A stretch of 64,000 nt of DNA, taken from the NCBI GenBank assembly GCA_021740585.1, contig JAIOZM010000009.1, positions 1 through 64,000 on the forward strand. The letters run 5' to 3'. Below, piece by piece: positions 4,027-62,420 of the stretch. The translations under genes were made by a program, and so were the position numbers. The number at the start of each line of letters is the position of its first letter. The first letter of the stretch is position 1. Source of the DNA: Bacteroidales bacterium (GTDB taxonomy: Bacteria > Bacteroidota > Bacteroidia > Bacteroidales > GCA-2748055). The notes beneath the pieces were generated by a model. The model was not told the DNA's origin, ran no database searches, and saw only the letters and a list, made by a program, of their open reading frames with translations.

Positions 4027-4110
4027 TAAAATGAAATTATAGAAAAAAGCACGACGAAATAAATAATTTGAATGATGTTACTAAGCGGTGAATTTTAATA
4101 AAAAAGACAG

Positions 4111-5004: not shown

Positions 5005-5022
5005 GCAAGTTCCCAAATTTTC

Positions 5023-5030
5023 TATCTTTG
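5023..5030 (+). promoter_or_regulatory. -7 promoter box (TATCTTTG) of the DUF4296 gene
   Basis: An exact match to the Bacteroidota -7 consensus TAnnTTTG. It ends only 7 bases before the ATG at 5038, so the transcript would have almost no leader. No good -33 TTTG is visible, so this rests on the -7 box alone. Confidence 0.45.
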
Positions 5031-5037
5031 AATAAAA

Positions 5038-5433
5038 ATGAAAAAATCTTCCTTGCTTACTATTATTCTATTGATTCTTAGTTTGTCTTGTTCAAACGAT
5101 CCTACTAAAATTTCAAAGAAAGACATGATCGAAAAAGATGTATTTATTGACATTCTTGTTGATATGCATATTTTGGACGCTATAACAAATGAGTCGGAGT
5201 ACTACCGTAAATTTGCCCCTGAAGATTCTATTAATATATATAAGTTAATTTTTGAAAAACACAAGGTAACACAAGCTGAGTTCGACAGCACAGTAAGTGC
5301 CTATACACGCCGCAGTGACTTATATAAGGAAATTTATGATGAAGTTTTGCTTCAGTTAAGTGTGAGGCTGGATTCAACAGAAACTCTTATTAAAGAAGAA
5401 TATGAAGAATCCTATCGCCAAAATTCAGAATAA
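5038..5433 (+). CDS. DUF4296 domain lipoprotein
   Basis: A 131-residue small lipoprotein: the N-terminus is a lipoprotein signal with Cys18 as the lipidated residue (LSLSCSND). The body contains the DUF4296 pattern: an acidic start (KDVFIDILVDMHILDA), the middle helix around YKLIFEKHKVTQAEFD, and a helical Tyr/Glu-rich tail. The family is restricted to Bacteroidota and has no established function. It lies 33 bp after the PorP/SprF gene but has its own candidate promoter box. Confidence 0.8.
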   Translation: MKKSSLLTIILLILSLSCSNDPTKISKKDMIEKDVFIDILVDMHILDAITNESEYYRKFAPEDSINIYKLIFEKHKVTQAEFDSTVSAYTRRSDLYKEIYDEVLLQLSVRLDSTETLIKEEYEESYRQNSE

Positions 5434-5482
5434 TTCAACCTTTTATTTTCCTGCTTTGGTTTCTTCCTGATACATTGAAGTT

Positions 5483-43608: not shown

Positions 43609-43673
43609 GCACTCTTTTTGTATTTTCACATTTTCTAATTACTTTCACATTCACATCCTCAAAAAACTTGCAT

Positions 43674-45110
43674 ATGGATCTTATGGTCTTTATTCCCTTT
43701 GCATCCTATTTTGTGTTGGTAATTTTAATTGGTTTCTTATCGAAAAGATTTTCTTCTGCGGGTATTTCTGAATTTTTTCTCGGTGGTCGAAAAATGAATT
43801 TTATCGTAGTGGCTCTCTCGGCTGTTGTGTCGGGAAGATCGGCCTGGCTTATGATCGGATTTGTTGGTCAGGCCTATTTAATGGGCCTTTCTGCCATTTG
43901 GGCTGTGGCAGGATATATTGTTGTTGAATTTTTTATGTTTATATTCTTTGCCCCAAAAATCAGAAGCTTTTCCGAGAAGCATAATTGCATTACCATTCCT
44001 GATTTCTTCGCGGCAAGGTTCAATGATCACGATGGCAGATTGCGATCTCTGGTTGTATTGATCTTCACAATTTTTATGATTACATATATTGCGGCTCAAT
44101 TTATGGCAGGGGGAAAAGCTTTTTTTGCCTATTTTGGAATAAACCATGGAACCGGTATTGCCATTACGGCTGCTATCGTTCTGTTGTATACCATAGTCGG
44201 TGGATTTCTTGCCGTTAGTCTTACCGATGTTCTTCAGGCAATTGTGATGATGGCAGCATTGATCGTATTGCCGCTTATAGCTATTCATGATAAAGGCGGA
44301 TTTGATATAGTGCACAGCCAATTGCTCGAAATGGATCCGGCATTTTTTAATCCCATGGCTTTTGGTATGGGCTCCATGATTGCCCTACTGGGTATTGGTC
44401 TTGGATCGCCCGGTAATCCTCACATACTTATCCGCTATATGTCGATAAAAGATCCAAAACAGCTTAGATTATCCGCAGTAATTGCAACCATTTGGAATAT
44501 ATTTCTTGCCGGTGGCGCTTTTATGATAGGTATTTTAGCCCGAAGTTATTTCCCCGATTCTTCAATACTGCCCAACGGTGATATAGAAAACGCCTATGTA
44601 AGTCTGGCAGAATTACTACTTCACCCTATACTTATGGGCATCTTTCTTGCCTCAATTTTTGCGGCTATTATGTCAACGGCCGATTCGCAGCTTTTAGTGG
44701 CTGCTTCCAGTCTGGTACGCGATTTTTATCAAAAAATTCTATTTAAACACAAAGAAATCTCTGAGTTTAAAATTATTTTTTACAGCCGGCTTACAATTGG
44801 CGGACTGGTTTATCTGGCAGTTATATTGGCCACCTCAGTGAAAGATCTGGTTTTTTGGTTTGTGTTATTTGCCTGGGCCGGACTGGGTGCTGCTATTGGA
44901 CCCACCTCTATTTTAGCCTTATACAGATCACGTACTACAAAAAACGGGGTTATGGCTGGTATGATTGCCGGAGCTCTTACTGTTTTCCTGTGGAAGAGCA
45001 GTCCGTTTTTATCAGCATGGCTTTATGAACTGATTCCGGGATTTCTCGCGGGCTGGGTGGTAACGTTTTGGGTGAGTGAATTTGATTGGTGGAGGTGGTA
45101 TAGGCGTTAG
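43674..45110 (+). CDS. Sodium:solute symporter (SSS family)
   Basis: A 478-residue transporter with about 13 hydrophobic helices. Signature stretches include SEFFLGGRKMNFIVVALSAVVSGRSAWLMIG, LGSPGNPHILIRYMSIKDPKQL and FAAIMSTADSQLLVAASSLVRDFYQK, typical of PutP-like sodium/proline symporters. It takes up a small organic solute with Na+; the solute is unknown. ATG 43674 is used instead of a TTG six bases earlier. Divergent from the HAD gene. Confidence 0.88.
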   Translation: MDLMVFIPFASYFVLVILIGFLSKRFSSAGISEFFLGGRKMNFIVVALSAVVSGRSAWLMIGFVGQAYLMGLSAIWAVAGYIVVEFFMFIFFAPKIRSFSEKHNCITIPDFFAARFNDHDGRLRSLVVLIFTIFMITYIAAQFMAGGKAFFAYFGINHGTGIAITAAIVLLYTIVGGFLAVSLTDVLQAIVMMAALIVLPLIAIHDKGGFDIVHSQLLEMDPAFFNPMAFGMGSMIALLGIGLGSPGNPHILIRYMSIKDPKQLRLSAVIATIWNIFLAGGAFMIGILARSYFPDSSILPNGDIENAYVSLAELLLHPILMGIFLASIFAAIMSTADSQLLVAASSLVRDFYQKILFKHKEISEFKIIFYSRLTIGGLVYLAVILATSVKDLVFWFVLFAWAGLGAAIGPTSILALYRSRTTKNGVMAGMIAGALTVFLWKSSPFLSAWLYELIPGFLAGWVVTFWVSEFDWWRWYRR

Positions 45111-45128: not shown

Positions 45129-45260
45129 AAGCTGCGCATCGGGAAAATGATTTCGCTCCCTGAGCTACGCATAGGGTAAGTGATGACGCTCCCTGAGCTA
45201 CGCATAGGGTAAGTGATTACGCTCCCTGTGCTGCGCATAGGGTAAGTGATTACGCACCTT
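45129..45260 (+). repeat. 33-bp tandem repeat, four units
   Basis: Four head-to-tail 33-bp units, consensus about GAGCTACGCATAGGGTAAGT followed by GATTACGCTCCCT, starting at 45129, 45162, 45195 and 45228. Units two and three are nearly identical; one and four are diverged. It lies between the symporter stop and the terminator. Confidence 0.8.
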
Positions 45261-45347: not shown

Positions 45348-48300
45348 CTAGTGCAGCAAGGTTACATCGCCTTCTTCCACAAAGTTCTTGCCGTTGGTAT
45401 ACTTACCTTTTACTTTCCAGATGTAAACCCCTTGTTTTGCGAGTCGTTCTTTAATATAGCCATCCCAGCCATAGTTTACTTCCGAGCTGTGGAATACCAT
45501 TTCACCCCAGCGATTGTATATATACAAGTCGTACTCGAGAACCTGATCGATAACCCCAGGGAAGAAAACGGTATTTACCGTGGCAGGATTGTCAGGATCA
45601 TAGTATCCACCTGTAGAACCGTTAGGATTCGGACGGAAGACATTCGGGAACTGTAAGGCTCCTGCCGGACTAACATATACGGCTGCTACTTTAATTATAG
45701 TATCCTTACAAGTTGGATTAGAACCTATACCTATAAGCATTACATCTTTCGAACCCACATATTCATACACATGGCTTGGTTCAAATTCTACGGATGTATT
45801 TTGAGAAGATTCTTCATTCGACGGATCTGTTGGTTCCTCATTGTAATCTCCAAAGTTCCACAGATAACTAACGGCATCTGAAGAATAATTAAAGAACTTA
45901 ACCGGTTTATCGTTTACATAAACGGAGTCTGGCGCATTGTTGAAGAATAAATTCGGCGATGCCCAAATCTCAATGTTTTGTTTTGAAGTGTGAGAGCCAC
46001 CCGGACCTGAAACCGTTAAAGTAACAGCATAAGTGCCTGCTTCAAAATAGGTGTAGAAAGGATCTTTTTTGGTAGATATACTTCCATCTCCGAAGTCCCA
46101 GATATAACTATTGGCATAAAGTGAAGTATTTTCAAACTGAACCAAAAGAGGAGTACAACCAGAAGCCGGTAAATTAAAGTTTGCAATTGGCGGTGTCGGA
46201 TTAATAATCACCGATTGTCTGATACTGTCAATACAATCCCCATATAATACCTTTTGCGTTATTGTATAGGTTCCCGGTGCTGCATAGGTATGTGTTGGAG
46301 CTGCCAGAGTAGAAGAATTACCATCACCGAACTCATATAAATAGCTCCAGGTTCCCGGTGAGCTCACAAGATTTGTGATATTCACGGTAGCGCTTGGATA
46401 GGTCTGTAATATAGGTGTTACGGTGAAATTTGGTTGTGGAATAGGATTCACCACAATATCTTCTGATTCTGTTGCCACACATCCGTAATACGATTTCGTT
46501 GTAAGCGAAATAGTATAGGTTTTCGCTGCCGTAGTAGTATTCAGGAAGGTATGTATAACAAAATATCCTCCATCTGAATCCTGTACCCCATCGCCAAAGT
46601 CCCAGCTATATTGAGAAGCCCCCGGTCTGCCCGTCATTTGGGCGGTAACCGGCTGACAAGCTTCTGTTGGATCGAGATTAAAACTTGCATCCACTTTAGG
46701 ATAAACGGTAACAATCTGATTGGCTGTATCACGACAAATATTGACTGAAGTGGCTACCAATTCAATGTTAAAGTACCTCACGGTTGGATCAAAATTATCA
46801 AAGTCATGAACCGCATGTGTCGTGGTTTCTTTTGCGCCACCATCGTCGAAGTTCCACTCATAGCCAACAGCACCCGTTGAGCTGTTTGTAAAGTTGACCG
46901 TCAGATCTCCACAAGTTGGTATAGCATCAGAGGTAAACTGAGCGTTTGGTCTGTCGTTTTCGATAGTTGCACTGGCACTTCCCTTACAGTTTTTACTGTC
47001 TGTTACCGTATAAACCAGATTGAAAGTACCATCAATAAGAGTGTTAAACACTACTTGTTCACTTGTCTTAGTGTAAAGTGGATTAACATCTCCCGTCCAG
47101 ATATGATTGGTATAAGCACCTGTTCCTCCGCTTGCATTTCCATCCAGATTAAGATCTGAACCACCGCAAACCAATGGGAATGTACCATCTCCAATAATAT
47201 TTGCCGTTGGATTCGGATTCACTTTAAGCGTTGCCGCAGCCGACTTAACCGCAGTACAGGCATTGAAAACTGAAAGCCTGTATTGCTTGCTTGGCACGCT
47301 GACCGGTGCATTAACAATGCTCAGAGTGGCTGTTTTCACATCCAGATATGTGCCTCCTTCAATAAGTGCATTCCATGTTGCTCCATTATCTGCGCTTTCT
47401 TCCCACTGGAACTCAATATTTGATCCTGTGGCACCAGATATAAAGGCTGTATTTGCACCTTCACAAATTTCAGAGTTAGACGGATTTGGATTAATCACCG
47501 GATTCTTGTTTACTATCAGAAGGGCTTCCGAAGAATTTACCGGAGGATTACAACTTCCGCTAACTTTTACTTTAAAACGATATCCATTGAAAGTAGCCCC
47601 AATATCTGTTACACTCAGCACATTGGTTTTAGTCCCGCTGTAACTCGAGTTTTCTGTAAGATTTGAGAAGGCTCCTCCGGTACTATATTGCCATTGGTAA
47701 GTTAAATCCGATCCTTCTGTTACAACCGTAAATATTGCGACTCCATTTTCACAAATGGTTGTTGTAGCCGCCGGCTGTGTAATAATTACCGGACTTGTTT
47801 TCACAATTAGTTCCGCAGCATCTGTAAATAATGGTGAACCACAGATTCCACTTACTATTGCTCTGTATTTATTCCCGCTGAAATCTCTTTCCACTCCAAA
47901 TATGCTCATAACCGGTGTTGCTGTTCCAATATAATCAGCAGTATCCTGTAAATCCTGCCATGCACCGGCCGGTCTTTGCTGCTGCCAGATGTAACTCAAT
48001 CCTGCTCCTTTCATATTCACAGCAAAACTTACATTTCCGTATTCACAAATAGTATCAGGCTGTGGTTGGTCAATAACTTCAGGACCAGTGTTTATAGTAA
48101 GCAGGGCGATATTGGAGATAGTGTAAGGATTGCAATTACCCACTACCCTTACCCTGTAACGATAACCGTTAAAGCGGCGACCGAGGGAGGCGATATTCAG
48201 TTTATTGCTTGCCGATCCGGTGTAAACCGATGTATCCGCAAGATCCTTATATCCCGTTCCCATATCTACCTGCCAGAAATAATTGATGTTTGCACCTGTT

Positions 48301-51300
48301 GCCAGAACCTCGAAGCTTGTAGAGACTCCCTCGCAAACTGTAACATCCTCGGGATCTGTCCATATTTCCGGGGCACTGTAAACCGTTAATGTTGCAGGAT
48401 CTGAGGTTACCGGACTTGTACATGTTCCCGAAACAACCGCATGGTATTCATAACCAGTCATTATTGAATCGACCGAGAATACTTTAAGAATCCTTGTATT
48501 CGCCCCAGTATATTTTCCACCATCAAAAATTGGTTCAAATCCAAGACCTTCACCCTTATCTACCTCCCATTGAATCATTGCTCCGTCGGTATCGCCGGTA
48601 AGAATGCTGAATGCTGCACTTCCCAGTTCACAAACAGCTGAATCTTCAGGTTGTAGCGTAATCTCCGGCCTTCTGTTAACCATCAGCATCACCTGATCGC
48701 TGGTTGCGGAACTACCACACTTTCCGCTTACTTCAGCGTAGTACCTGTAATTGTCATGACTATAAGGTACGTTGGTTAGCGTAAGCGTATTTGTATTGAA
48801 TCCGGTATGAACACCATCTGCAGAAACCACATCCCAGGTGCTACCATCGTAATAATGCCAAATAACTGTTGGAAGGGTGGTTACACCGGTTGCTATGGTA
48901 AAGCTGGTATCTGAATTCTCACAAATAAGAGCTGCCAGAGGTTGCAATGTAATCTCAGGATTTTCTTCAATGCTTAATGTTACACTGTCGGAAATAACCT
49001 GAGGTGTACAGAAACCACCCAGTAATACCCGGTATGCATATTCGTGCATTGAGGAATTCGGACTGTTTATGTTTAATGTAGCTGTATTGGCTCCACTGTA
49101 ATTTGCTCCAATTGTGTTCTGCCACATCGTTCCATTGTGATATTGCCATTGGTAATTCGGAATATAAGTCTGACCTGCATCAACCGTAAAGCTTGTTGGA
49201 ACCGATTCGCAAGTGGTTGCGCTTACCGGCTCAGTTAAAATGGTCGGCCTTATCCTTACATTTAATGCAACCTCATAACTTGTATCTGCTGGTGTACATT
49301 GTCCCGATACAATTCCCCGGAACAAATAGCTATCCATACTTGCAGGAACATTTGTGAGCACCAGGGTATTTGTATTACCATTTGTAAATACTCCTCCGGT
49401 AGCTGTTTGCCAAATCGAATTATTATAGTATTCCCATTTGTAAATAACTCCGGTGGTTACTCCTGCATTCAATGAGAAACTTGCATTTTCGTTTTCACAA
49501 ATTTCTACCTCTACCGGTTGACTTAGAATTTCAGGACGCTCATAAACGGTCAATACCGCTGTATCAGAAATTTGAGCAGGTGAACAGGTTCCGCTAACAA
49601 CCACTCTGTATTGAGATCCGTTGAGCGAAGAATTGGTTCCATTGATAAACAATGTATCGCTGGAAGTACCCTGATAAATACCTGCTGAAGGTGTTACCCA
49701 GGAGCTTCCGTTATAGGTCTGCCAGTTATAAGTAACATTAGTGGTTACTCCCGCATCTACAAAGAAAAATACGGTATCTTGCTCACATACAGCATCATCC
49801 TGAGGATGAGTGTCGATTTGTGGTTTTTCATTTACGGTTAAGTCAACCTCAACGGAAGGAACCGGAACCGGACATTTCCCGGCAACGTTCAATCTGAATT
49901 TGTAGTTATTGTAAGTTGAAGGAACCGAAGTGATAACCAGTGAATCGTTGGTATCATCACTGACACCTCCTAAACCTGAAGCATTAGCCCAGACAGAGCC
50001 GTTATAATACTCCCACTGATAAGTCGGAATGGTAGTTTGACCCGCATCCACCACAAATATTACATCGCTGTCTTCACAAATGGTTCTGCTCATTGGCTCC
50101 TGAATAATTTCAGGATGCTCGTCAACAATAAGTCTGACCGTTTCGGAAGTCACCGGAGGAGTACAGTCGCCCGATATAACCACGCGGTACTGATATCCAT
50201 TGTATGCCGAAGAAGCCGATACAACCGTCAGATTATCTGTATCAACACCGGTATAAGCTCCATCTGTTGTCAGCAATTTCTCCCACATTCCGGTTTTATT
50301 CACATACCATGCCCGTATAACTCCGGTAGTAATTCCGGAATTTACGCTGAAGTGTGCTGGTGCATCTTCACAAACAGTGTCGTTTACAGGTTGAGTAAGA
50401 ATTTCGGGAATATCCTTAACGGTTAATCCTACTTCCGCTGAAATTTCTGTTTCCGGACAAATTCCTCCTACAATAACTCTGTAAGTATATCCATCATAGC
50501 TTGAAGGAACACTTGATAAAAGAAGTGTTGAGGTTCCGGTACCTGAATATACGGCCGAATCAATCCCAATATCACTGAATCCTGTTCCCATATCCACCTG
50601 CCATACATAGCTTGGGAAGCTTGTTACTCCGGCATTCACCGTAAAGAATGTATTATTTTCTTCGCATATTTCCTTGGCAACAGGCTGAACCTTAATTTCA
50701 GCTTTTTCATTAATGTAGAGAGTTGCTGCTGTTGAAGTTTGTGTAGGAGTACAACTTCCGCTTACCCGCACACGGTAACGGTATCCGTCGAACCTACTGG
50801 TTGGATTAAGAACATTCAATACTGCCTGATCAAATCCGCTGTAAACCAGTGCGCTATCGATTCCGATATTATTAAATCCAAGACCCTGATCGACCTGCCA
50901 CTGATATATGGCGCCGTCGGTAACACCCGCATTCACAACAAATGTTACGGGCTCTGTTTCACACACGGTGGTGTCCTCAGGATGCTCGAGTATTTCAGGT
51001 CTTTCTCTTACAGTAAGCAGAGCGTCATCACTTTCAACAGGAACAGGACATATTCCTGAAACTACGGCCTGATAAACCATGCCGTTATAGTTTGAAGGAA
51101 CACTTAGCAGTCGAAGAATAGCAGCATTTGCTCCATTATAAATTGCTGTATCTTCAAGATCTGCCCAATTGGTTCCTCCATCGGTGCTGAGTTGCCATTG
51201 GTACTGAACATTGCTGGTTACACCTCCGTTAACCGTAAAGAACGGACTTTCACCTTCACAAATATCAAGGTCAACAGGTTGAAGGGTAATTTCAGGTTGC

Positions 51301-54300
51301 TCCTGAACATAAAGTGTTGCCGTTGCGGAGGTAACAGGATTTGGACAATCTCCGCTAATAATTACGCGGAAATCATAATCGTCGAATCGTGAGCTTGCGC
51401 TTAATACATTGAGTGTTTCCAGGTTGTAACCACTATAGAAAGCAGCGCTGTCGACGGTGATGTTCCCGAAACCGGAACCCGCATCAACCTGCCATTGGTA
51501 GGCTGCATTGGTTGTATTTCCTGCGTCAACATCAAAATGAACTGCATTGTCTTCACAAACGGTTGTGTCAACCGGTTGAGAATCAATTTCAGGTCTTTCG
51601 TCAACCGATAAGGTAGCAGGATTTGATGTTGCGAATGCACCGCAATCTCCGGTAATAATTACCTGATACTGATGTCCATTAAATCGGCTGGAAGCAGAGG
51701 CGATCATAAGAGTATCGTTAAACGCACCCGAATATACAGCTGTGTCGGCCAGGTCGTCCCATGTTGCGCCATTATCAATGCTAAGCTGCCACTGATAGGT
51801 TGGATTCGTGGTAATACCTGCATTCACACCAAATCCGGTGGATGAGTTCTCGCATACCAACTGATCGAAAGGATCACGAGGGCTGATAGGTTCGTACTTA
51901 ATTAAGAGCTGAACGGTGTCGGAATAAGCAAATTCAGGACAAGTACCACCTACTTTCACTCTGTAATAGTATCCATCGTAAGTTGGATTTGCTGAGTTAA
52001 TAAGCATTGTCGCCTGAGTGAAATCGGCGTGTCCGATCAGTGAACCGTCAACATCAGCAAATGCATTCGCCAGATTGTCGGTATATTCCCACTGATACGT
52101 AAGTCCGTCGCCGGTAGCAGCTACGGTGAAGCTTGTATTGGTTGACTCGCAGACTTCAGAAGTGATTGGCTGCGAAGTAATTTCCACCGTATCACGAACT
52201 ATGATGGATGCGGTTCCGCTAAGATTACCGGAGGCGAAATTCGATGTGCATCCGTTGGCATCGGTTACACTTACCAGATTATAGGTAGTGTTTACCAGAG
52301 GACTAACATTTGTTACTCCCGGAGATGCAAGGAAGTTAAGCGTTCCTACTCCATTATCGATGGTAACATCATAATCTGCTGTTCCTGTGGTGATGGTTAT
52401 TGTTAATGGTGTAGCGTCGCCCGGACAAATGGTATTGTCGCCGCTTAGAACAGCAACAGGCAACGGATCGACCGTGATAATTATTTCTGCTGAAGTTGCG
52501 CTACAGCTATTTCCGTTTAGCGTGCTTGTTACCACTCTTCTGTACCTTGTTGTTTGGGTAAGAACCGGTGGTGAATAAACGGCTGAAATCGCGCCGATAA
52601 CAGTGTTGTATGTTATTCCGTCAGTACTGTTTTCCCAGATATATGTTAGCGAGCCAGATCCTGTAGCCGATAAAACATCGGTTAAGGAGGCCGGGCTTGT
52701 ACCGTAACAAATCGTCTGGGCTGTACCAATGGTTCCTGAAGTCACATCATTAACAGTAACCGTTAACACGTTGGAAATTGCTTCGCAAGGAACACCATTA
52801 TAAGTGCTAATCGTAATCCTTCTGAAATCGGTTGTTACTGCAAGTGGATCCGGATCGTAGGCTACAACATCACTTCCTGCAATTGCAGCAAAAGCGTTCA
52901 CGCCTGTTCTCGATTCCCATCTATAACTAATGGTTCCCGGACCGGTACCTGCCAGCAGACTGCTGAAGATAACAGGATCGCCACCATTACAAATGGTTTG
53001 GTTTCCGCTAATATTTCCCGGATCTACATTGTTGAGGAATACTGTAAGAGTATTGCTTTCTGCCGAACATGATTTTCCATTTAATAAACTGCTTGCAATA
53101 CGCTTATAATAGGTTGTTTGAACCACGGCCGGCGGATCATAAGTAGCTGATGTGGCTCCTATAATATTTACAAAGCTCAGGTTATCCAGACTCGACTGCC
53201 ACTGATAGCTGATGGCTCCGCTTCCGGTTCCCGGAGTTGTGCTGGTAAAGGCCAGTGGATCGTCTGATGAACATACCGTTTGCGTTCCGGCAATAACTCC
53301 AGCGTCAACATCATTAACTGTTACGGTAAGAACATTGGAGATGGCCTCACAAGAAACCCCATTCAATGTACTAATGGCAACTCTTTGGAAGTAAGTTGTT
53401 GCAGCAAGAACTCCATGATCGTAAGTGGCTGCTGTTCCTCCGGTTGAAGTCCATGTCGCGTTATCCGGACTCGATTCCCAACGGTAGGTTACGGCGCCGG
53501 TTCCTGTTCCCAAAACAACGTTGCCAAAGGCAGCAGGATCGTCGCCGCTGCAGATGGTCTGGTCGGCAGATATGCTACCGGCAGATACATTATTTACAGT
53601 GACTGTAATTATATTTGAAGTAGCGGAACAAGCCACAAAGTTTAATGTGGAAGTATGAATTCTTCGGTAGTATGTTGTTTGAAGAATTCCGCCCGGCGGA
53701 TCGTAGGTCGGAGTATTGGCTCCAACAATAGTGTTGTAGGTTATACCGTTTATACTCGACTCCCATGCCCAGCCCGAAACACCACCCGAGGTGGTTCCGT
53801 CATCACTGCTGCCGATTACTCCCGGATCGCCACCACTGCAGATGGTCTGATCGTTGGTAATGGTTCCGGCGGTGAGATCGTTTACTTCAATCATTACTGA
53901 AGCAGTATAATCGGAGCAGGTTACAAAATTCAAAGTAGAAAGAATTTGTCTGCGGAAATACGTTGTTACTGCTTGTGCTGGTGGATCGTAGGTGCTGAAG
54001 TTTGCTCCCCCAATATTAAAGAAGTTAACATCATCCACGCTGCTCTGCCACTGGTATCCGATTACTCCTGCTACGGTACCGTCATCAAGACTGGTAAGCG
54101 GCAAAGGATCATCACCGCTGCAAATGGTAGCATCGGAGCCAATCGTTCCGGCTGAAGCGCTGTTGTATGTAATTTCGATGATATTGCTTTCATTCGAGCA
54201 AGTTTTTCCATTCAATAAACTATAAGCTACTCGTTTATAGTAAACCGTTTCTGTTGGAACCGGTGGATCATAAGTAAGTGCGTTAACACCCAATGATGTC

Positions 54301-57300
54301 CATCCAATCAGATCTGTGCTCACTTCCCAGTCGTACGTTACTGCTCCTGCTCCTACAGGATTAACAGAACTGGTAATGATGGCCGGATCTGTTCCATCAC
54401 AAACCGTCTGATTGCCTGCAATTGTTCCTCCGCTTATGGTGTTAACGGTTACGATAACAGCATCGTTAACAGGAGCACATCCTGAAATTGCATCCGTAAC
54501 TATGAGTGTGTAGGTTCTGGTGCTTGCCGGTGTGGCAACCGGATGCTCAGCAACTGCATCATCCAATGAGAAGGAAGGATTCCATGAATAGGTATAAGTA
54601 CCCGAGCCGCCCGTGGCGCTTGCTCCGGCAGAGGCAACTTCACCACCCAGAGTTACCGGTTCGCCCGAACATATAGTGGTTGCGTCTCCGGCGTAAGCAA
54701 CAGGTATAGAATATACATGAATATCTAATGTCTGTGCATCACCTGAACAACTATAAGGTGCCGGGGTGAATTCCTGAACGCTGACGGTATAATCCCCCGC
54801 ATTCGGAAAACTTAGCACTACCCAATTGGTTGTGCCTCCATTCGAAATTGTTACTCCCGGAGGTATGGTCCAGCTGTAGGTATTGCCCACATTATTCGGT
54901 ACTTCATAATATTGTCCGGCAGTGCCAATACACATGGCTGTTTTCCCTCCTCCTGAAATTGGCGGAGTATCGGGACGACTGATTATTGAAATGTCTTTTT
55001 CATCCCAGTCGGCCTGAACCGGTCCGGCATCATCCGGATCGTTGGTGGTAAGTCTGAAGGTCAGGGTTGCCGTATTGTTTGGCAGAGCCAGATCGCCCGC
55101 ATCCACATTATACACCTGGGTTACCGTACGGAAATCGTCGGTAGTATCGGCCGGTGTTCCGTTATCATCTTCTGCTCCGATTAAAGGAAGTTCAAAACGA
55201 ACGCCGCTGCCGGCCACTGCAGGAAGACTCCAGCTACCTGAAGTTGCAGATCCGCTGATTTCTCCAACCAGAGTTATTTTCATATCGGTAGGCTCACATA
55301 TTGTTTCGTTATCCAATGCGTCGGCTACCGGGTTTTCACCAATACCCACATAAATTTCAGCATATTCAGGTCCGCAAGAGGTACCCGGATCATCGGAAGT
55401 GAGTCTCAAAGTAACTCCTCCGGCCAGTTCCTGTGCAGCGGTTGGGGTGAATGTTATATTATTGGTGGTATTATTTGGGGTGAATGTTCCTCCTGTATTC
55501 GGACCAATTTCTGTCCATGTTCCGGTAGTAACAGTTGCGGAAGCTCCTGAAATAGTAGCCGTCAGACTGCCGCTTGTACCCTGAGCGATAAATATGGAAG
55601 GCGATTCATGAATTTGAACATAAACGGCTTCGTCGATTCCTACGTCTATATCATTAAATACCCTTGGACAAGTTTCATTTACTATGGGAACATTGGTAAT
55701 CAGTCTCAGCTGAATATTTCCGTCATCAATATCTGTATAAGCAGGAACATATTCTACCGAAACGGTATTAAGAGCTGTTGTTTCATTTTGGAGAGTTCCG
55801 TCACCATCAAGTATACTCCAGGCAGCAGAACCGGCGCCACCTCCAAATGTTCCGGAGATATTAATCAAAGCAAGTGAGCTGTCGCGACAAACATCGAAGT
55901 CGGCCACGGTAGCAGCAGTATGTTGCTGGTAGAAGGTAATTACCACATCGTCGAAAGAGGAACAAACTATGGTTGGGAAGTTTCCGTTCTCCAGAGTCCA
56001 GCGGAAAGTATAGGTACCATAGGCACTTACTACAGGCTGCGCGTTATAGTCTGCGGCCGTTGTACCGCCGTTATATGAGCTTATTGCACCAGGATTGACA
56101 CCCGTAAGTGTCCATCTCCCGCGACCTACCACGGGATCGTTTCCTGCCAGAGTGGTAGTAAGCAAATTACAAGCTACATGTTGATCGGTGCCTGCATCTG
56201 CTTTGGGTTGAAGATCTATTATGGTTTCATCAAAGGTTGAACAACTGCCGTTGGTAATGGTCCAGCGGAAAGTGTATCTTCCCGGATTGTTAACCGTAAC
56301 GGAAATATCAGGATTAGTTGCACCTGCGCCCCAGCTGCTAACCACGCCATCGCTGCTGCTTACGGTCCATAATCCGGATCCTACAGTTGGGGTATTGGCA
56401 TCTAAGTCGACGCTAAGTATTTCGCATATATATTGATTCGGACCAGCATTGGCTTGTTCAGCAAAATTAATAATTACCTGATCAAATGAAGAACAAGTTC
56501 CTCCTGTAGGATTGGTTAAAGTCCAGCGTAATGTATATGATCCATATCTATTAACACTGATATTTGTCGTCGGACTGGTATTATTAATAAAACTTACAAT
56601 ACCTCCTGCAGGTTGGGAATCTACTGTCCATAATCCTGATCCGTGCGATGGCGTATTACCGGCAAGAACCGTTGCCAGAGTACCGCAAATAAATTGTGCA
56701 GGGCCTGCTTCGGCTGCTTCTGTATAGGCAATAACCACATCCTCAAAACTGGAGCAGGTAGCTCCGGTTGGATTGGTGAGAGTCCATCGTAAAGTATACG
56801 AACCATATCTGTTTACTGTGGCCGTTGATGTCGCACTGGCACTATTGCTGAAAGTGAGTGTGCTTCCGACTGGCTGGGAGACTATAGACCACAAGCCACT
56901 GCCATGGGAAGGAGTATTTCCTGCTAAAGTTGCAGCGTTCAGACTACTACAGAATGCCTGATCGGGTCCCGCTGTGGCGGTTTCGGTATACGCAATAACT
57001 ACATCATCGAAGGAAGAACATGTTCCTCCGGTTGGATTGGTAAGAGTCCAGCGTAAAGTATACGAACCATATCTGTTTACCGTGGCTGTGGAGGTCGGAC
57101 TGGCACTGTTGCTGAAAGTGAGGGTGCTTCCCACAGGTTGGGAGACAATAGACCACAGTCCACTTCCATGTGAAGGGGTGTTTCCTGCCAGGGTGGCTAC
57201 GGTGAGCGCACCGCAGAATCCCTGGTCGCTGCCTGCATTGGCATTCTGAGTATAAGCGATTACCACATCGTCGAAGGAAGAACATGTTGCTCCGGTTGGA

Positions 57301-60300
57301 TTGCTGAGAGTCCAGCGTAAAGTATAGGAACCATAGCGGTTTACTGTGGCTGTGGAGGTTGGACTGGCATTATTGCTGAAGTTAAGAGTACTTCCGACCG
57401 GCTGGGATATGATAGTCCACTGACCCGTTCCGTGTGAAGGAGCGTTTCCTGCCAGGGTGGCTATGGTAAGAGCACTGCAAAAACCCTCATCGGAACCTGC
57501 ATTTGCCTGTTCGGTAAAGGCTATAACCACTTCATCGGTACTTGAGCAAGTAAGCCCTGTTGGATTGGTAAGTTCCCATTCCAGAGTATATTCACCATAA
57601 CGATCAACAGTGAGGCTGGATGTCGGACTCGTACTGGCTCCCAGAGTTGCGGTACTACCTACAGGACTTGCTGTTACGGTCCACTGACCGCTTCCGTGAG
57701 AAGGAGTATTTCCCGCAAGATTTAAGGCGTTCAGGTTTCCGCAAACACCCACGTCGTTGCCGGCGTTGGCAGTTTCGGTAAATGCAATAACCACATCGTC
57801 GAAGGTGGAGCAGGTACCGTTGGTAATGGTCCAGCGTAATGTATAAGATCCATATAAGGTGGCAGTTGCGGCGGTATTATAAAGATTTCCATTGGTGAAG
57901 GATATGGTTCCCGGTCCCGACTGCATGGTCCAGGTACCTGTTCCAATGGTAGGATTGTTTCCTGCCAGAGTAAATCCAAGCGCTCCACAAATTCCCTGAT
58001 CGTTGCCTGCATTGGCTGGTTCAGCAAAATGAAGATTTACTTCATCCTGACTCGAGCATATCACGCCATTTACCTCTGTCCAGCGAAGAATATAATCCCC
58101 ATATCTGTCGACATTAATGGTAGAAGTGGCACTGGCGGCATTGCCAAATCCCACTGTAGCACCGGCAGGATTTGAAACCACGGTCCATGTACCGGTTCCA
58201 ACACTTGCTGTGGCAGCCAGAGTATAATCGGCGGCGCCTGAAATGTCGGCACAAATAAAATCTTCCGAACCCGCATCAGCTACCGGAACTTCAAAAACGT
58301 TTACATTATAATTTGGTGTAGTGAAACTACAACCGTTCTCATCTTCAACATAATAATTAAGAGAATAAACAGCGCTGCCTGTAACAGCAGGAACCGTCAT
58401 GGTTGCTGTGGTAGGATCACCATTAGCAGTAAGAGTCCATACTCCTCCGGTTACTTTTGTCCAGGTATTTACCGGATAAACCCCGGTTCCCCCTGTAGGC
58501 TGACCGTCGAGGACCAAACCAATACCTTCACAAACGGAGGCGTCGGAGGTAATGGTAGCTGTTACAGTAGAAACATCAACAATAATGGTATCTGCATCGC
58601 TACATCCATTTACATCGGTAACGGTATAAATCATGGTGTAAGTACCTGTGGAAAGACTGGCATCACCATTGGTGTTAAAACTGGTTACCGGATTGTTTGT
58701 AGTTGAAAGCAAGGCTGTAAGTTGAGGTCCGGTAAGCGGTAGGGCTCCATAAAGACCCGACCACACACGACTTTCCCCACCTCCGGAATTTGAGAGATCT
58801 TCCACAGCGGTAAGAATACGGGCATTGTTTTCACATACCCCAACCAAGCTTGCTGCTATGTTAATAACCGGACCGGTAACATTAATCGTTGTAGCATCTG
58901 TAGCCGTACATCCATAATTATCTGTTACGGTATAAGTGAGATTGAATGCCCCAGGAATTGAGGAATTAAAAACTACATCATCCACATCGTCAGCATCGAG
59001 AGGGGTAGTATCTCCCGTCCACAAATAATCGGTAATAGCACGTGTTCCTGCGACTGCATTTCCGTTCAAATTAAGATTGGTGTTGAGACAAAGTGGTGTA
59101 GGTCCGGCCGGTGCGATATTCACGGCAGGAAGAGCCAAAACCGTAACGTCCACAAAATCGGTTGCAGAGCAGCTGCCACCGGCTGTTGGGGAAAAGTCGT
59201 CGGTTAGCGTTACTGTATATCTAATGGTACCCGTGGTATTGGGTGTGATGGTAGGAGAAGCTCCCAGGGCAGATTGTCCGTTATCGCCACTCCAGGAGTA
59301 TACATATCCGGTTCCGGTTCCGGGGTTTACTATGGAGGCAGATAAATTGACGGATTCTCCAGAACAAATAATCATATCGTTATTTACCCCACTGGTCTCA
59401 GTAGCAGAAGCTGTAACGCTAAGAGCATTATTCACCACTATGGTTTGGGTGGTTGACTGATCTTCAGGACAAGCGCCGTTAACAATGGCCACCCGGTACA
59501 CATGATCGCCCGGAGTGGTAGTAGCAGGAGGATTATAAGATGCAGCTGTTGCTCCACCCACGGTATTCCAGCCACCGCCGTCGATATTAACATCCCATCT
59601 GATTATGGTTCCGTTATATGAACCGCCGGTAAGAGTAAGAGCGGTTGGATCTCCCCCGTTACAAACATCATTGGCTCCGGTAAGTGTTCCACCCAGAGAA
59701 GCTTCATCGACGGTAATGGTTGCCACAGCAGAGTTAAGGGTGAGACATTCCCCACTGGTAACAATAGCACGATATTCGTAAGTACCTGCAAGAAGAGCCC
59801 CGCTGGTATAGGTAGCTGAGGTATTCCCAATAGATGTCCATGCACCAAATACCCCGGCCAGCGGCCTGTATCGGTATTCCCAGTCGTCGATACCGCCGAC
59901 GTGTCCGGCAAGAGTGAGAAGACCGGAATTTGAGCCTGCACAAACAGTGCGGTTAGGAGTTACGGCGCCGGCAACGGTGGTGGGGTCGACTATGGTGGTA
60001 ACCATATTCCCCCACAATTCCAAACAGCTGCCGCTTTGCACCCTTGCCTGGTAATCCCAGGTACCCGCCTGTGCTGGTGTATAGGTTCTGGTATTTGCAC
60101 CAGAGGCAGAGACTGTCCATGTGCCGCCATTCCTTCTTGATCGGTAGGCCTCAATGGTACCCACATATCCGCTAAGGGTTAGATTCACGCTATTACCCAG
60201 ACAGATACGATCCTGTCCCGCAGCATAAGCAAGCGTACCCGTATTGGTCTCCGGATCGACACGCACAGTAATATCAAAGCTGGATCCCACGCAACCTGTA

Positions 60301-62420
60301 GGTCCGGTAGGAATTACGCTATATATAACATTAATCTGGGTGGTTCCCGGATTTGTAGGCGCATTATTAATAATTCCCGTTCCTGAAGAACCGTTATTCC
60401 CCGACCAGGAAAAAGTGGACGAGGCAACGTTGGTGTAGGATTGGGGATTAATGTTGAGGGCGTTGTTTTCGCAGGTAGTTAGGGGGGCAGGGGGAGTGCC
60501 TACGGGGATTTGGTTTACATCCACCAAAAAGTTGACTGTAGATCCGCATGTATTATCGGTATACCTCCATTCGGCAGAAACGGTAAGGTCTTCGCCAACC
60601 GTTCCGTTAGCTGAAGCCGTGATATTTCGGGTACCTTGTCCGGCGGTAATGGTCCAGCCTGCAGGAACAGTCCAGTTTATTTCTGTGGCTCCGCCGTTTG
60701 TCATGTTTGGCGCAACTGCGGTATAAGTCGGGGCCGGAACAGAAAAGGCAATTCCGGTTTCGTTTTGGCAGACGTCTAAGGGGCCGGTAATTGGGCCGGC
60801 GAGGGTGAGTTGGTCTTTTATTAGGAGTTCGACTTCGGTTGCGGGGCCTTCGCAGAGGTTGTCTGTGGTTTTCTTATCGGTAACATAATAATTATAAACA
60901 CCAGAGACAGTTACACCGGGATCGTAATTTACACCATTAGCAAGAAATCCCGTTTTATCAGGGTTAGTGTACCAGTTCAAAACTCCAACTGGAGCACTTG
61001 AAACTGATAGTTCAGAATCTCCTCCGAAACAGATGGGCTTATCAGGCACAGTTGGGGGTGGGGGTGCGTCGATAAGTATCAAATAAGCAGTTGTTGTAAG
61101 TGGATCATTATTAGGATCACCATCAATCTGCCAAAATGCATCCCAGGGATTACAATCACCCCAAATTCTCATTCTTACTTCAAAAACATCATTTACCTCA
61201 TCGGTGCTATAATTTCCTTTATGGTAAATCGGCAGGGTTTGTCCGGTGGGCCCATTCCCCTCGGGATCATTGTTAATAAAAACTTCACCCTCGAAATGGT
61301 CAGAAATCCCTCCAAAACTGATTGCAGCACCTGTATTATCCGTTACCCAAACCGTATCTCCAACTCCCCGAATCAGACCAACATTGGGTATCCCTGCTCC
61401 AGCGTGAGTGGCGTACTCAAATTGAGTATAACGGGTACCTCTGTTGATTGCTATATCTTCATTTAGTGTTACTAGTGGATCGATGCAATTAAAAGTTGTA
61501 TTATTTGAGAAAACAACACCTGGAATATCTTCCCCAACACAATATTCAAATCCTTCTGGAGGATCTGCAATTAGCATCTCTCCAGAATTTGTATCATCAT
61601 CGCAGAATGCAGAGATATTGAAACTTTTTATAGATACACCCGAATTACATACTTTAAAGGCGGGCATAGCTAAATAGGGATCGGAGCCAACTTTAAAATG
61701 TACAGGATAAGTATAAGGCTGAAATTTGCATAAGTTATATATCTGAGTATATGAATAGGTTTTGTCAAAAGTAAATATTCCACTTCCGGCAAATGTTTCT
61801 ATTGCAGATTGGGTGTTTGCAATTCCAGTATGCCAAATAAAGTAAGTCAAAATACCACCTGCATTAAAGTGTATACTGTTTCTTGTTCTGGGGGCCACGG
61901 TAAAATTTCCGGTAATTTGAGCACTAAATGTTTGGCAAATACCATCAGTACTTATTGTAGCGTTTGCAATAATATCATCACAAGATACCTCATAGTTGTT
62001 TACAGCTGCTGTAGCAGGAATAGTTGCTACATCGCCCCCTGTTCCGGAAAGACCCCCACCTGGTTGAGTGTATGCTAGGGTTACGGAAGATCTTTCCCCG
62101 TAAGTTATTGAACTATTTAGAATTATAAGCAGATCAGTTGTTGGAAGACCAACGAATGAACCCGGAGCGACACTAGTAATAGTTGCGGCTGTACCTGTTA
62201 AAGTGTAGTCCAGTTTATTACCCGCTGAAGTTATATCGCGATCGAAATGCATAACTATATATTTTTGACCTACATCTGTAAATGTAATCGGATAAACATT
62301 GGTTGCGGGATTTGGGCTAAGCAAAACTGGTTGAGCAAATATATTCCCCAATGTAAAAAGCATTGTAGCAAAAAGAATGAAAGTACTTTTTAGCTTTTGG
62401 GTGGTGGATGCTGTTGGCAT
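45348..62420 (-). CDS. Giant (5,690-residue) T9SS type B repeat protein
   Basis: A 17-kb gene. Order: signal peptide (1-30, ends NIFAQ); a non-repeat head (31-~500) with strand-like, Cys-containing segments; mixed Ig-like units; nine ~88-residue units (about 1379-2167); seven ~94-residue units (about 2657-3317); 17 Ig-like ~97-residue units (about 3411-5067) with a Cys pair each (xxCE ... SGxC); five PKD domains (FDDGG, FGDG, FGDG, FGDG, FGDY; about 5150-5586); and a gliding-motility-associated C-terminal domain (5587-5690, FPNVFRPNPNG, YIYNRWGEMVF, GWDGYIK) for type IX export of type B substrates. The likely role is a cell-surface adhesin or filament (inferred). No PorP/SprF gene is adjacent. 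The ATG at 62420 gives the signal peptide. Confidence 0.95.
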   Translation of the reverse strand: MPTASTTQKLKSTFILFATMLFTLGNIFAQPVLLSPNPATNVYPITFTDVGQKYIVMHFDRDITSAGNKLDYTLTGTAATITSVAPGSFVGLPTTDLLIILNSSITYGERSSVTLAYTQPGGGLSGTGGDVATIPATAAVNNYEVSCDDIIANATISTDGICQTFSAQITGNFTVAPRTRNSIHFNAGGILTYFIWHTGIANTQSAIETFAGSGIFTFDKTYSYTQIYNLCKFQPYTYPVHFKVGSDPYLAMPAFKVCNSGVSIKSFNISAFCDDDTNSGEMLIADPPEGFEYCVGEDIPGVVFSNNTTFNCIDPLVTLNEDIAINRGTRYTQFEYATHAGAGIPNVGLIRGVGDTVWVTDNTGAAISFGGISDHFEGEVFINNDPEGNGPTGQTLPIYHKGNYSTDEVNDVFEVRMRIWGDCNPWDAFWQIDGDPNNDPLTTTAYLILIDAPPPPTVPDKPICFGGDSELSVSSAPVGVLNWYTNPDKTGFLANGVNYDPGVTVSGVYNYYVTDKKTTDNLCEGPATEVELLIKDQLTLAGPITGPLDVCQNETGIAFSVPAPTYTAVAPNMTNGGATEINWTVPAGWTITAGQGTRNITASANGTVGEDLTVSAEWRYTDNTCGSTVNFLVDVNQIPVGTPPAPLTTCENNALNINPQSYTNVASSTFSWSGNNGSSGTGIINNAPTNPGTTQINVIYSVIPTGPTGCVGSSFDITVRVDPETNTGTLAYAAGQDRICLGNSVNLTLSGYVGTIEAYRSRRNGGTWTVSASGANTRTYTPAQAGTWDYQARVQSGSCLELWGNMVTTIVDPTTVAGAVTPNRTVCAGSNSGLLTLAGHVGGIDDWEYRYRPLAGVFGAWTSIGNTSATYTSGALLAGTYEYRAIVTSGECLTLNSAVATITVDEASLGGTLTGANDVCNGGDPTALTLTGGSYNGTIIRWDVNIDGGGWNTVGGATAASYNPPATTTPGDHVYRVAIVNGACPEDQSTTQTIVVNNALSVTASATETSGVNNDMIICSGESVNLSASIVNPGTGTGYVYSWSGDNGQSALGASPTITPNTTGTIRYTVTLTDDFSPTAGGSCSATDFVDVTVLALPAVNIAPAGPTPLCLNTNLNLNGNAVAGTRAITDYLWTGDTTPLDADDVDDVVFNSSIPGAFNLTYTVTDNYGCTATDATTINVTGPVINIAASLVGVCENNARILTAVEDLSNSGGGESRVWSGLYGALPLTGPQLTALLSTTNNPVTSFNTNGDASLSTGTYTMIYTVTDVNGCSDADTIIVDVSTVTATITSDASVCEGIGLVLDGQPTGGTGVYPVNTWTKVTGGVWTLTANGDPTTATMTVPAVTGSAVYSLNYYVEDENGCSFTTPNYNVNVFEVPVADAGSEDFICADISGAADYTLAATASVGTGTWTVVSNPAGATVGFGNAASATSTINVDRYGDYILRWTEVNGVICSSQDEVNLHFAEPANAGNDQGICGALGFTLAGNNPTIGTGTWTMQSGPGTISFTNGNLYNTAATATLYGSYTLRWTITNGTCSTFDDVVIAFTETANAGNDVGVCGNLNALNLAGNTPSHGSGQWTVTASPVGSTATLGASTSPTSSLTVDRYGEYTLEWELTNPTGLTCSSTDEVVIAFTEQANAGSDEGFCSALTIATLAGNAPSHGTGQWTIISQPVGSTLNFSNNASPTSTATVNRYGSYTLRWTLSNPTGATCSSFDDVVIAYTQNANAGSDQGFCGALTVATLAGNTPSHGSGLWSIVSQPVGSTLTFSNSASPTSTATVNRYGSYTLRWTLTNPTGGTCSSFDDVVIAYTETATAGPDQAFCSSLNAATLAGNTPSHGSGLWSIVSQPVGSTLTFSNSASATSTATVNRYGSYTLRWTLTNPTGATCSSFEDVVIAYTEAAEAGPAQFICGTLATVLAGNTPSHGSGLWTVDSQPAGGIVSFINNTSPTTNISVNRYGSYTLRWTLTNPTGGTCSSFDQVIINFAEQANAGPNQYICEILSVDLDANTPTVGSGLWTVSSSDGVVSSWGAGATNPDISVTVNNPGRYTFRWTITNGSCSTFDETIIDLQPKADAGTDQHVACNLLTTTLAGNDPVVGRGRWTLTGVNPGAISSYNGGTTAADYNAQPVVSAYGTYTFRWTLENGNFPTIVCSSFDDVVITFYQQHTAATVADFDVCRDSSLALINISGTFGGGAGSAAWSILDGDGTLQNETTALNTVSVEYVPAYTDIDDGNIQLRLITNVPIVNETCPRVFNDIDVGIDEAVYVQIHESPSIFIAQGTSGSLTATISGASATVTTGTWTEIGPNTGGTFTPNNTTNNITFTPTAAQELAGGVTLRLTSDDPGTSCGPEYAEIYVGIGENPVADALDNETICEPTDMKITLVGEISGSATSGSWSLPAVAGSGVRFELPLIGAEDDNGTPADTTDDFRTVTQVYNVDAGDLALPNNTATLTFRLTTNDPDDAGPVQADWDEKDISIISRPDTPPISGGGKTAMCIGTAGQYYEVPNNVGNTYSWTIPPGVTISNGGTTNWVVLSFPNAGDYTVSVQEFTPAPYSCSGDAQTLDIHVYSIPVAYAGDATTICSGEPVTLGGEVASAGASATGGSGTYTYSWNPSFSLDDAVAEHPVATPASTRTYTLIVTDAISGCAPVNDAVIVTVNTISGGTIAGNQTVCDGTDPAIITSSVNPVGAGAVTYDWEVSTDLIGWTSLGVNALTYDPPVPTETVYYKRVAYSLLNGKTCSNESNIIEITYNSASAGTIGSDATICSGDDPLPLTSLDDGTVAGVIGYQWQSSVDDVNFFNIGGANFSTYDPPAQAVTTYFRRQILSTLNFVTCSDYTASVMIEVNDLTAGTITNDQTICSGGDPGVIGSSDDGTTSGGVSGWAWESSINGITYNTIVGANTPTYDPPGGILQTTYYRRIHTSTLNFVACSATSNIITVTVNNVSAGSISADQTICSGDDPAAFGNVVLGTGTGAVTYRWESSPDNATWTSTGGTAATYDHGVLAATTYFQRVAISTLNGVSCEAISNVLTVTVNDVDAGVIAGTQTVCSSDDPLAFTSTTPGTGSGAISYQWQSSLDNLSFVNIIGATSATYDPPAVVQTTYYKRIASSLLNGKSCSAESNTLTVFLNNVDPGNISGNQTICNGGDPVIFSSLLAGTGPGTISYRWESRTGVNAFAAIAGSDVVAYDPDPLAVTTDFRRITISTYNGVPCEAISNVLTVTVNDVTSGTIGTAQTICYGTSPASLTDVLSATGSGSLTYIWENSTDGITYNTVIGAISAVYSPPVLTQTTRYRRVVTSTLNGNSCSATSAEIIITVDPLPVAVLSGDNTICPGDATPLTITITTGTADYDVTIDNGVGTLNFLASPGVTNVSPLVNTTYNLVSVTDANGCTSNFASGNLSGTASIIVRDTVEITSQPITSEVCESTNTSFTVAATGDGLTYQWEYTDNLANAFADVDGSLIGHADFTQATMLINSANPTYDGYYYRVKVGGTCPEFAYSDTVQLLIKYEPISPRDPFDQLVCENSSTGFGVNAGITTNPTYQWQLSIDNGATWDDLADTAVYSGAFNDTLMIASASSRFNGHQYQVIITGDCGAFATSNPATLSVDERPEIDSQPVDTTVCEDNAVHFDVDAGNTTNAAYQWQVDAGSGFGNITVDSAAFYSGYNLETLNVLSASSRFDDYDFRVIISGDCPNPVTSATATLYVQEQPEITLQPVDLDICEGESPFFTVNGGVTSNVQYQWQLSTDGGTNWADLEDTAIYNGANAAILRLLSVPSNYNGMVYQAVVSGICPVPVESDDALLTVRERPEILEHPEDTTVCETEPVTFVVNAGVTDGAIYQWQVDQGLGFNNIGIDSALVYSGFDQAVLNVLNPTSRFDGYRYRVRVSGSCTPTQTSTAATLYINEKAEIKVQPVAKEICEENNTFFTVNAGVTSFPSYVWQVDMGTGFSDIGIDSAVYSGTGTSTLLLSSVPSSYDGYTYRVIVGGICPETEISAEVGLTVKDIPEILTQPVNDTVCEDAPAHFSVNSGITTGVIRAWYVNKTGMWEKLLTTDGAYTGVDTDNLTVVSASSAYNGYQYRVVISGDCTPPVTSETVRLIVDEHPEIIQEPMSRTICEDSDVIFVVDAGQTTIPTYQWEYYNGSVWANASGLGGVSDDTNDSLVITSVPSTYNNYKFRLNVAGKCPVPVPSVEVDLTVNEKPQIDTHPQDDAVCEQDTVFFFVDAGVTTNVTYNWQTYNGSSWVTPSAGIYQGTSSDTLFINGTNSSLNGSQYRVVVSGTCSPAQISDTAVLTVYERPEILSQPVEVEICENENASFSLNAGVTTGVIYKWEYYNNSIWQTATGGVFTNGNTNTLVLTNVPASMDSYLFRGIVSGQCTPADTSYEVALNVRIRPTILTEPVSATTCESVPTSFTVDAGQTYIPNYQWQYHNGTMWQNTIGANYSGANTATLNINSPNSSMHEYAYRVLLGGFCTPQVISDSVTLSIEENPEITLQPLAALICENSDTSFTIATGVTTLPTVIWHYYDGSTWDVVSADGVHTGFNTNTLTLTNVPYSHDNYRYYAEVSGKCGSSATSDQVMLMVNRRPEITLQPEDSAVCELGSAAFSILTGDTDGAMIQWEVDKGEGLGFEPIFDGGKYTGANTRILKVFSVDSIMTGYEYHAVVSGTCTSPVTSDPATLTVYSAPEIWTDPEDVTVCEGVSTSFEVLATGANINYFWQVDMGTGYKDLADTSVYTGSASNKLNIASLGRRFNGYRYRVRVVGNCNPYTISNIALLTINTGPEVIDQPQPDTICEYGNVSFAVNMKGAGLSYIWQQQRPAGAWQDLQDTADYIGTATPVMSIFGVERDFSGNKYRAIVSGICGSPLFTDAAELIVKTSPVIITQPAATTTICENGVAIFTVVTEGSDLTYQWQYSTGGAFSNLTENSSYSGTKTNVLSVTDIGATFNGYRFKVKVSGSCNPPVNSSEALLIVNKNPVINPNPSNSEICEGANTAFISGATGSNIEFQWEESADNGATWNALIEGGTYLDVKTATLSIVNAPVSVPSKQYRLSVFNACTAVKSAAATLKVNPNPTANIIGDGTFPLVCGGSDLNLDGNASGGTGAYTNHIWTGDVNPLYTKTSEQVVFNTLIDGTFNLVYTVTDSKNCKGSASATIENDRPNAQFTSDAIPTCGDLTVNFTNSSTGAVGYEWNFDDGGAKETTTHAVHDFDNFDPTVRYFNIELVATSVNICRDTANQIVTVYPKVDASFNLDPTEACQPVTAQMTGRPGASQYSWDFGDGVQDSDGGYFVIHTFLNTTTAAKTYTISLTTKSYYGCVATESEDIVVNPIPQPNFTVTPILQTYPSATVNITNLVSSPGTWSYLYEFGDGNSSTLAAPTHTYAAPGTYTITQKVLYGDCIDSIRQSVIINPTPPIANFNLPASGCTPLLVQFENTSLYANSYIWDFGDGSISTKKDPFYTYFEAGTYAVTLTVSGPGGSHTSKQNIEIWASPNLFFNNAPDSVYVNDKPVKFFNYSSDAVSYLWNFGDYNEEPTDPSNEESSQNTSVEFEPSHVYEYVGSKDVMLIGIGSNPTCKDTIIKVAAVYVSPAGALQFPNVFRPNPNGSTGGYYDPDNPATVNTVFFPGVIDQVLEYDLYIYNRWGEMVFHSSEVNYGWDGYIKERLAKQGVYIWKVKGKYTNGKNFVEEGDVTLLH
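45665..46965 (-). repeat. PKD module block of the giant protein
   Basis: Five PKD-type modules in a row, recognised by Trp/Tyr-x-F-G/D-D-G cores: WNFDDGG, WDFGDGVQ, YEFGDGNS, WDFGDGS and WNFGDYN. They stand between the Ig-like block and the sorting domain, as in many surface proteins. Confidence 0.8.
47221..52190 (-). repeat. Seventeen-unit Ig-like repeat block of the giant protein
   Basis: Seventeen copies of ~97 residues (292 bp). Each begins like I-x-x-x-P-x-x-x-x-I/V-C-E, has F-x-V-x-A-G-x-T-T, YQWQ or a variant, and ends with YRVxVSGxC..S. The Cys in each start and end could form the Ig disulfide. DNA similarity is moderate: the units diverge strongly, so this block is old. Confidence 0.85.
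52470..54450 (-). repeat. Seven-unit ~94-residue repeat block of the giant protein
   Basis: Seven ~282-bp units. The consensus is G-x-I-x-x-x-Q-T-I-C-S-G-D-D-P, Y-x-W-x-S-S, Y-D-P-P, T-T-Y-x-R-R, S-T-L-N-x-x-x-C. Each has two Cys. Units differ by many substitutions. Confidence 0.85.
55920..58285 (-). repeat. Nine-unit ~88-residue repeat block of the giant protein
   Basis: Nine units, each starting like NAGNDQGICG, then LAGNTPSHGSGLWS, RYGSYTLRW and ending CSSFDDVVIAYTE. Middle units at about 56.8-57.5 kb follow a 264-bp period and are near-identical in DNA, whereas the outer units are diverged. Confidence 0.88.

Follow-up and report, generated by a model that had tools for sequence, protein, structure and literature searches.

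A 5,690-residue repeat protein of a Bacteroidales bacterium as a probable T9SS-exported surface fibre

What might an uncultured Bacteroidales bacterium build from a single gene that fills more than a quarter of the stretch of DNA in which it was found, and how might the product reach the cell surface? The gene lies in a window of 64,000 nucleotides (the whole stretch analysed here, from contig JAIOZM010000009.1). The first-pass annotation had it occupying 27% of this window, which agrees with the measured 26.7%; the strand is minus, which corrects that annotation. The open reading frame starts with ATG and contains no internal stop, and the encoded protein is acidic, with abundant Thr, Gly, Ser, Val and Ala and only 75 Lys. 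The GC content of the gene is raised, mostly at codon positions 1 and 2, in keeping with a protein rich in Gly, Thr, Ala and Ser; GC3 is 0.37, compared with 0.31-0.38 for the neighbouring genes, and rises to 0.46 within residues 501-1000. Horizontal acquisition was considered as a source of the raised GC and rejected, since the rise is mostly in codon positions 1 and 2 and GC3 is near that of the neighbours. Between the convergent ends of the giant gene and the symporter gene lies a 33-bp tandem repeat (window positions 45130-45255; 3.8 copies, 90% matches), at the spot where relatives of the giant carry a shuttle gene.

Domain architecture of the giant protein

We defined the repeat units with iterated profiles that were self-trained on the giant protein alone (Table 1). 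The earlier count of nine units of ~88 residues, seven of ~94 and 17 of ~97 was recovered exactly, and autocorrelation of the protein sequence agrees, with peaks at 88, 94 and 96-99 residues. The three blocks had been described as three repeat families, and the blocks themselves are clearly seen; the division into three independent families was rejected, since the block B and block C profiles cross-match. Because the block B profile scores every one of the 17 block C units (49-72 bits), we take B and C to be subfamilies of a single Ig-like family, which leaves two superfamilies rather than three.

Table 1. Features of the giant gene and its neighbours (window coordinates)
Feature	Position	Strand	Basis or remark
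Giant gene, whole	45348..62420	minus	ORF of 5,690 aa, ~600 kDa, predicted pI ~4.1
Likely Sec signal peptide, residues 1-29	62334..62420	minus	Read by eye and hydropathy
N-terminal head, residues 30-560	60741..62333	minus	Ends in Ig_7 'CHU_C-associated' domain (453-533)
PKD_6 (541-629) and PKD_5 (648-724), PKD-like	60249..60800	minus	Pfam
Three early block-B-like Ig units, residues 737-997	59430..60212	minus	Iterated profile
Block A: nine PKD-like ~88-aa units, residues 1381-2163	55932..58280	minus	Iterated profile, 98-143 bits each
Block B: seven Ig-like ~94-aa units, residues 2670-3318	52467..54413	minus	Iterated profile; related to block C
Block C: exactly 17 Ig-like ~97-aa units, residues 3413-5067	47220..52184	minus	Iterated profile, 81-113 bits
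PKD array, residues 5076-5560	45741..47195	minus	PKD-like module with CGG motif and five PKD modules
Type B T9SS C-terminal domain, residues 5580-5690	45348..45683	minus	CHU_C match 5618-5673
Upstream neighbour	62877..63980	minus	NTP_transf_5 nucleotidyltransferase; no T9SS gene
Downstream neighbour, convergent	43668..45110	plus	Na+:solute symporter

The protein begins like a secreted one, with a basic start, a hydrophobic core at residues 14-28 (the most hydrophobic 15-mer of the whole protein) and an end reading ...NIFAQ. Outside its Ig_7 domain the head had no match in Pfam or the PDB by profile search, and it contains no recognisable lectin or other binding domain; it is nevertheless kept, at ~30% identity, in relatives and also in a 967-aa paralogue. 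At the other end, Pfam places PKD_4/PKD within the last 620 residues. Five PKD modules had been proposed there; five are compatible with the sequence by eye, whereas Pfam gives four PKD_4 stretches. The type B tail ends with the motifs ...NRWGE...GWDGY...GVYIWKV...GDVTLLH.

Block A, which has a divergent tenth unit at residues 2280-2349, is the most regular part of the gene: its central units are ~79% alike in DNA, with a period of 264 bp (56722-57537), and its tandem units reach 85% identity in protein. Repeats this similar could have been collapsed or expanded during assembly, making the long frame partly an artefact, and the contigs of several relatives end inside the gene. We find this scarcely credible: the B and C units are divergent, the frame is unbroken, and a protein of 5,791 aa whose C block likewise has 17 units is encoded in an independent genome. 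Doubt attaches solely to the precise count of central A units. Chance or artefact as the origin of the frame as a whole can be excluded, judging from sequence comparison, because relatives with the same scaffold exist in other genera.

Predicted beads and the comparison with GhpA

The cysteines follow the units closely. Fifty-one cysteine pairs are spaced 55-80 residues apart, with one pair in nearly every bead from residue ~550 to ~5,320, and between residues 1000 and 5320 the spacing alternates almost without a break between 59-77 residues inside a bead and 23-33 between beads. In blocks A, B and C these values are ~60-70 and 23-30, respectively. On the simplest reading, we infer that each bead acquires one disulfide while still in the periplasm, ahead of export.

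Structure prediction of the block units had been suggested as a check on the repeat architecture, and for blocks A and C it gives confident, rod-like strings of beta-sandwich beads. The AlphaFold model of two block A units has a mean pLDDT of 93, and its best Foldseek match is the base of GhpA (9fly, E 4.4e-10); by VIA-align 9fly is again top (Z 11.7, 33% identity), followed by a single-domain PKD structure (Z 10.6). The model of three block C units has a mean pLDDT of 91; overlapping windows in its alignment A1 were partly mis-registered by MAFFT (501 columns, rows at 100%), and the model is still confident. Its best full-length matches are titin I67-I69, with the predicted three-unit arrangement superposing on titin I-band Ig structures (2rik, 2rjm, 3b43) at TM 0.76-0.77 over three domains, a likeness of fold and geometry only, at 17% identity, from which we claim no common function. 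Blocks A and C are thus predicted to be beta-sandwich beads, and block C to form a titin-like Ig rod; on these models the giant would consist of more than 50 bead-like domains in a row. An Ig domain contributes ~4 nm per bead, and with ~55 beads we estimate a fibre length of ~200-240 nm.

The match to grappling hook protein A (GhpA) of the predatory bacterium Aureispira sp. CCB-QB1 (PDB 9flp, 9fly and others) raises the possibility of a grappling-hook-type filament, in which giant chains would lie side by side, as in the GhpA heptamer, and catch other cells. GhpA is likewise a giant single chain (5,898 aa, nearly the same length), one monomer reportedly runs the full length of the filament (PMC13319060), and its tail is type B-like (E 7.9e-6), as is that of the giant. 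Block A and the GhpA base share a domain family: the block A profile matches eight stretches of GhpA at residues ~4678-5720 (E 5e-92). However, strong matches are confined to GhpA residues 4542-5801 plus the tail, and GhpA has no match to the giant's head or block C, so that full GhpA homology was rejected and no other part of the giant is detectably related to it. The position of the shared domains also differs, with the tandem block-A-type domains near the C-terminus of GhpA and block A in the N-terminal half of the giant, and in relatives from other genera the available parts contain no block A. Moreover, hook proteins of this kind occur alongside a T6SS in ixotrophy, and the T6SS sheath gene VipB was not found in the genome, which is 92.5% complete. 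We therefore regard a grappling-hook-type filament as rather improbable.

Relatives with kept ends and a changing middle

Searching with the head brought up a protein of 5,791 aa from another genus (G002; Bacteroidales bacterium RS_7_37, JAGLOO010000035.1) and an incomplete one from the giant's own genus (G001); the C-terminal module as query added relatives in G004, G009, G011, G016 and G018. The proteins measure at least 4,317, 3,834 and 2,434 aa in G004, G009 and G001, respectively, and 2,547 aa in G011; most of these frames run into contig ends, so that the lengths are minima and the absence of block A from relatives in other genera holds for the available parts. The tail and PKD array of the relatives are 47-73% identical, and in most of them units of the Ig block match as well. 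Between the giant and its G002 relative, residues 3295-5689 are colinear at 50% identity and residues 9-517 at 31%, whereas residues 518-3294 of the giant have no colinear match in the 5,791-aa protein. By eye, G002 carries a different ~92-aa repeat of the EPTPVAAISN type where the giant has blocks A and B, and the middle of the G016 protein consists of SprB-like repeats. These comparisons indicate that the middle ~2,800 residues are exchangeable, while the head and the last ~2,400 residues are kept. The genome also encodes the 967-aa paralogue, in which head, PKD array and tail occur but the repeats do not; the giant therefore resembles a short scaffold that has been expanded.

The Ig block itself carries a record of its units. 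Both the giant and its G002 relative have 17 block C units, and unit i pairs with unit i: identity is 50% on the diagonal and 36% off it, a value reached by 0 of 100,000 permutations. G018 has matches to C units 9-17, in order, and the G016 array ends with C units 14-17. Across the series of giants the number of Ig units is 1, 3, 5, 6, 17, 17 and 22; the 22 in G004 are consistent with an internal block duplication, and the three in G001 resemble units 13, 16 and 17. The one-to-one matches, taken with the differing counts, indicate that unit identities are old and that array length shifts by gain or loss of whole blocks. There is modest support for unit 1 of O1 being a chimera of units 1 and 13 (63% versus 56% over 27 residues on one side; on the other, 55%, with the runner-up at 48%).

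Of the 149 genomes of the order, 51 have block A and 46 have block C. Because these modules are so common, sharing A and C does not by itself prove that two proteins do the same thing. Open frames that are larger still, of 11,730, 8,359 and 7,914 aa, contain block C or A units in other genomes of the order (G053:C85 ~77845-91227; G061:C168; G061:C131). Giant T9SS proteins of this kind are already common in the order; what is new here is a member with a useful comparative structure.

Type B tail, shuttle and export

The C-terminus had been assigned to the gliding-motility sorting domain. The Pfam family CHU_C (PF13585) bears this out at 33.2 bits (cut-off 27), and the tail aligns with nine type B tails at the invariant RWG, GW-G and G-Y positions, whereas the NCBIfam type B model TIGR04131 scores 22.5 bits, below its cut-off of 35; the giant's domain belongs to a divergent subgroup that is common to its relatives. 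The genome encodes SprA (2,594 bits), nine PorP/SprF and 10 CHU_C genes above cut-off, and 142 matches to the type A tail Por_Secre_tail at E <= 0.001.

A tail of this type on so long a protein recalls SprB of Flavobacterium johnsoniae (6,497 aa; PMC9870892), a giant repetitive T9SS protein that also has a type B tail and needs a PorP/SprF (PMC9143113; PMC12618676). The giant might similarly be a mobile adhesin that drives gliding as it is drawn along a GldJ track, and besides SprA the genome encodes a GldJ-like protein; this protein, however, scores 435.7 bits, just under the curated cut-off of 458.2. The giant differs from SprB in being built of Ig and PKD beads, with no SprB repeats (PF13573) found by Pfam, and in having no adjacent shuttle, and there is another type B protein in the window (358-4026) that does have seven SprB-repeat stretches and its own PorP/SprF. 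We consider a gliding role unlikely. That second type B protein (1,222 aa, with SprB repeats and CHU_C) has its PorP/SprF directly downstream (358-5004), forming a canonical pair, unlike the orphan giant.

Type B proteins gain anchorage by binding to PorP-like barrels (PMC9143113). The F. johnsoniae shuttle is usually encoded immediately downstream, and orphan type B substrates there use an unlinked one (PMC12618676). No PorP/SprF gene lies beside the giant within the window, where its neighbours are the symporter and the nucleotidyltransferase genes. A PorP/SprF gene is found directly downstream of the giant's relative in G004, G016 and G018, and ~1.6 kb downstream in G002, behind an AbiE-like sequence. 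In G002 an AbiEi-like ORF lies between giant and shuttle, and DUF6577 and AbiEii-like ORFs follow the shuttle (L026:17737-18558, L029:395-2267); mobile defence genes seem to have entered around this pair. Because the shuttle found downstream of the relatives is missing here, and given the F. johnsoniae precedent, the giant is by context an orphan type B substrate. Its shuttle is probably not adjacent, and the closest candidate is the PorP/SprF encoded by C129 (L070:4869-5849), which is the orthologue of the relatives' shuttles (57-61% identity) and follows a protein of 442 aa bearing a type B tail. The likeness to the F. johnsoniae orphans, which share an unlinked PorP/SprF, lies in a type B tail without an adjacent shuttle; there, shuttle use was shown by co-immunoprecipitation (PMC12618676), whereas our candidate is identified by orthology only.

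In this assembly the C129 frame holds one in-frame stop, and because of this another member of the PorP/SprF family may serve the giant. Together with the lack of an adjacent shuttle, the stop could also mean that the giant is a poorly exported or decaying relic whose shuttle has been lost in this lineage. Yet the giant's reading frame is intact over 17 kb, the shuttle genes of relatives are uninterrupted, that of the same-genus G001 lying in the matching place, and the F. johnsoniae orphans are served by unlinked shuttles (PMC12618676). The stop may be an assembly error in the metagenome-assembled genome, and we judge decay to be very improbable.

Beside the shuttle, the C129 locus contains an ECF sigma gene followed by a gene for a ~450-aa protein (L070:6292-8310). 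The two occur together in three genomes from two genera (also at L029:6528-8419 and L067:1283-3197), and a PorP/SprF gene comes after the pair in the giant's own genome and in G001. The ~450-aa protein combines PKD domains and a type B T9SS tail with a short, cytoplasmic-looking N-terminus and one hydrophobic segment at ~50-68; across the order, its N-terminal part has matches in 32 of the 149 genomes. The protein resembles an anti-sigma-type regulator with a secretion tail, and the pair could be a sigma circuit that senses type B traffic; our literature search found no described case of such a circuit.

A broader proposal would make the whole family grappling-hook-like, multi-chain appendages of T6SS-less Bacteroidales, with a kept base and head, an exchangeable shaft and sigma-linked shuttle export. 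We hold this to be distinctly improbable. If true, shaft cassettes, the GhpA-base module included, would be swapped between lineages, retuning length and stiffness, and export would be tied to a shuttle co-located with an ECF sigma factor and a type-B-tailed membrane protein. The solved GhpA base domain is tied to ordinary Bacteroidales giant adhesins, which suggests a common stock of stalk modules as the source of hooks.

Our preferred reading is that the giant is probably an elongated T9SS-exported surface adhesin fibre. The first-pass annotation had proposed a long surface fibre exported by the T9SS, and the tail, the SprA and GldJ-like genes, the shuttles of relatives, the rod-like models and the GhpA precedent all point the same way; the export, anchoring, oligomeric state and tip-out orientation of the fibre, as well as adhesion and its target, are our inference, with orientation and anchoring following from type B biology. 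The signal peptide would take the protein to the periplasm, where more than 50 beta-sandwich beads would fold, most of them closed by one disulfide. The type B tail would then thread through SprA, be received by a PorP/SprF barrel and remain anchored at the outer membrane. The PKD array and the 17-unit Ig block would form the stalk, the exchangeable middle blocks would set length and presentation, and the N-terminal head, as the distal tip, would meet the target. The orphan state and the relocated shuttle make orphan type B cargo-shuttle pairing testable, and the natural series of proteins with the same ends and different middles could show which parts set export, anchoring, length and binding.
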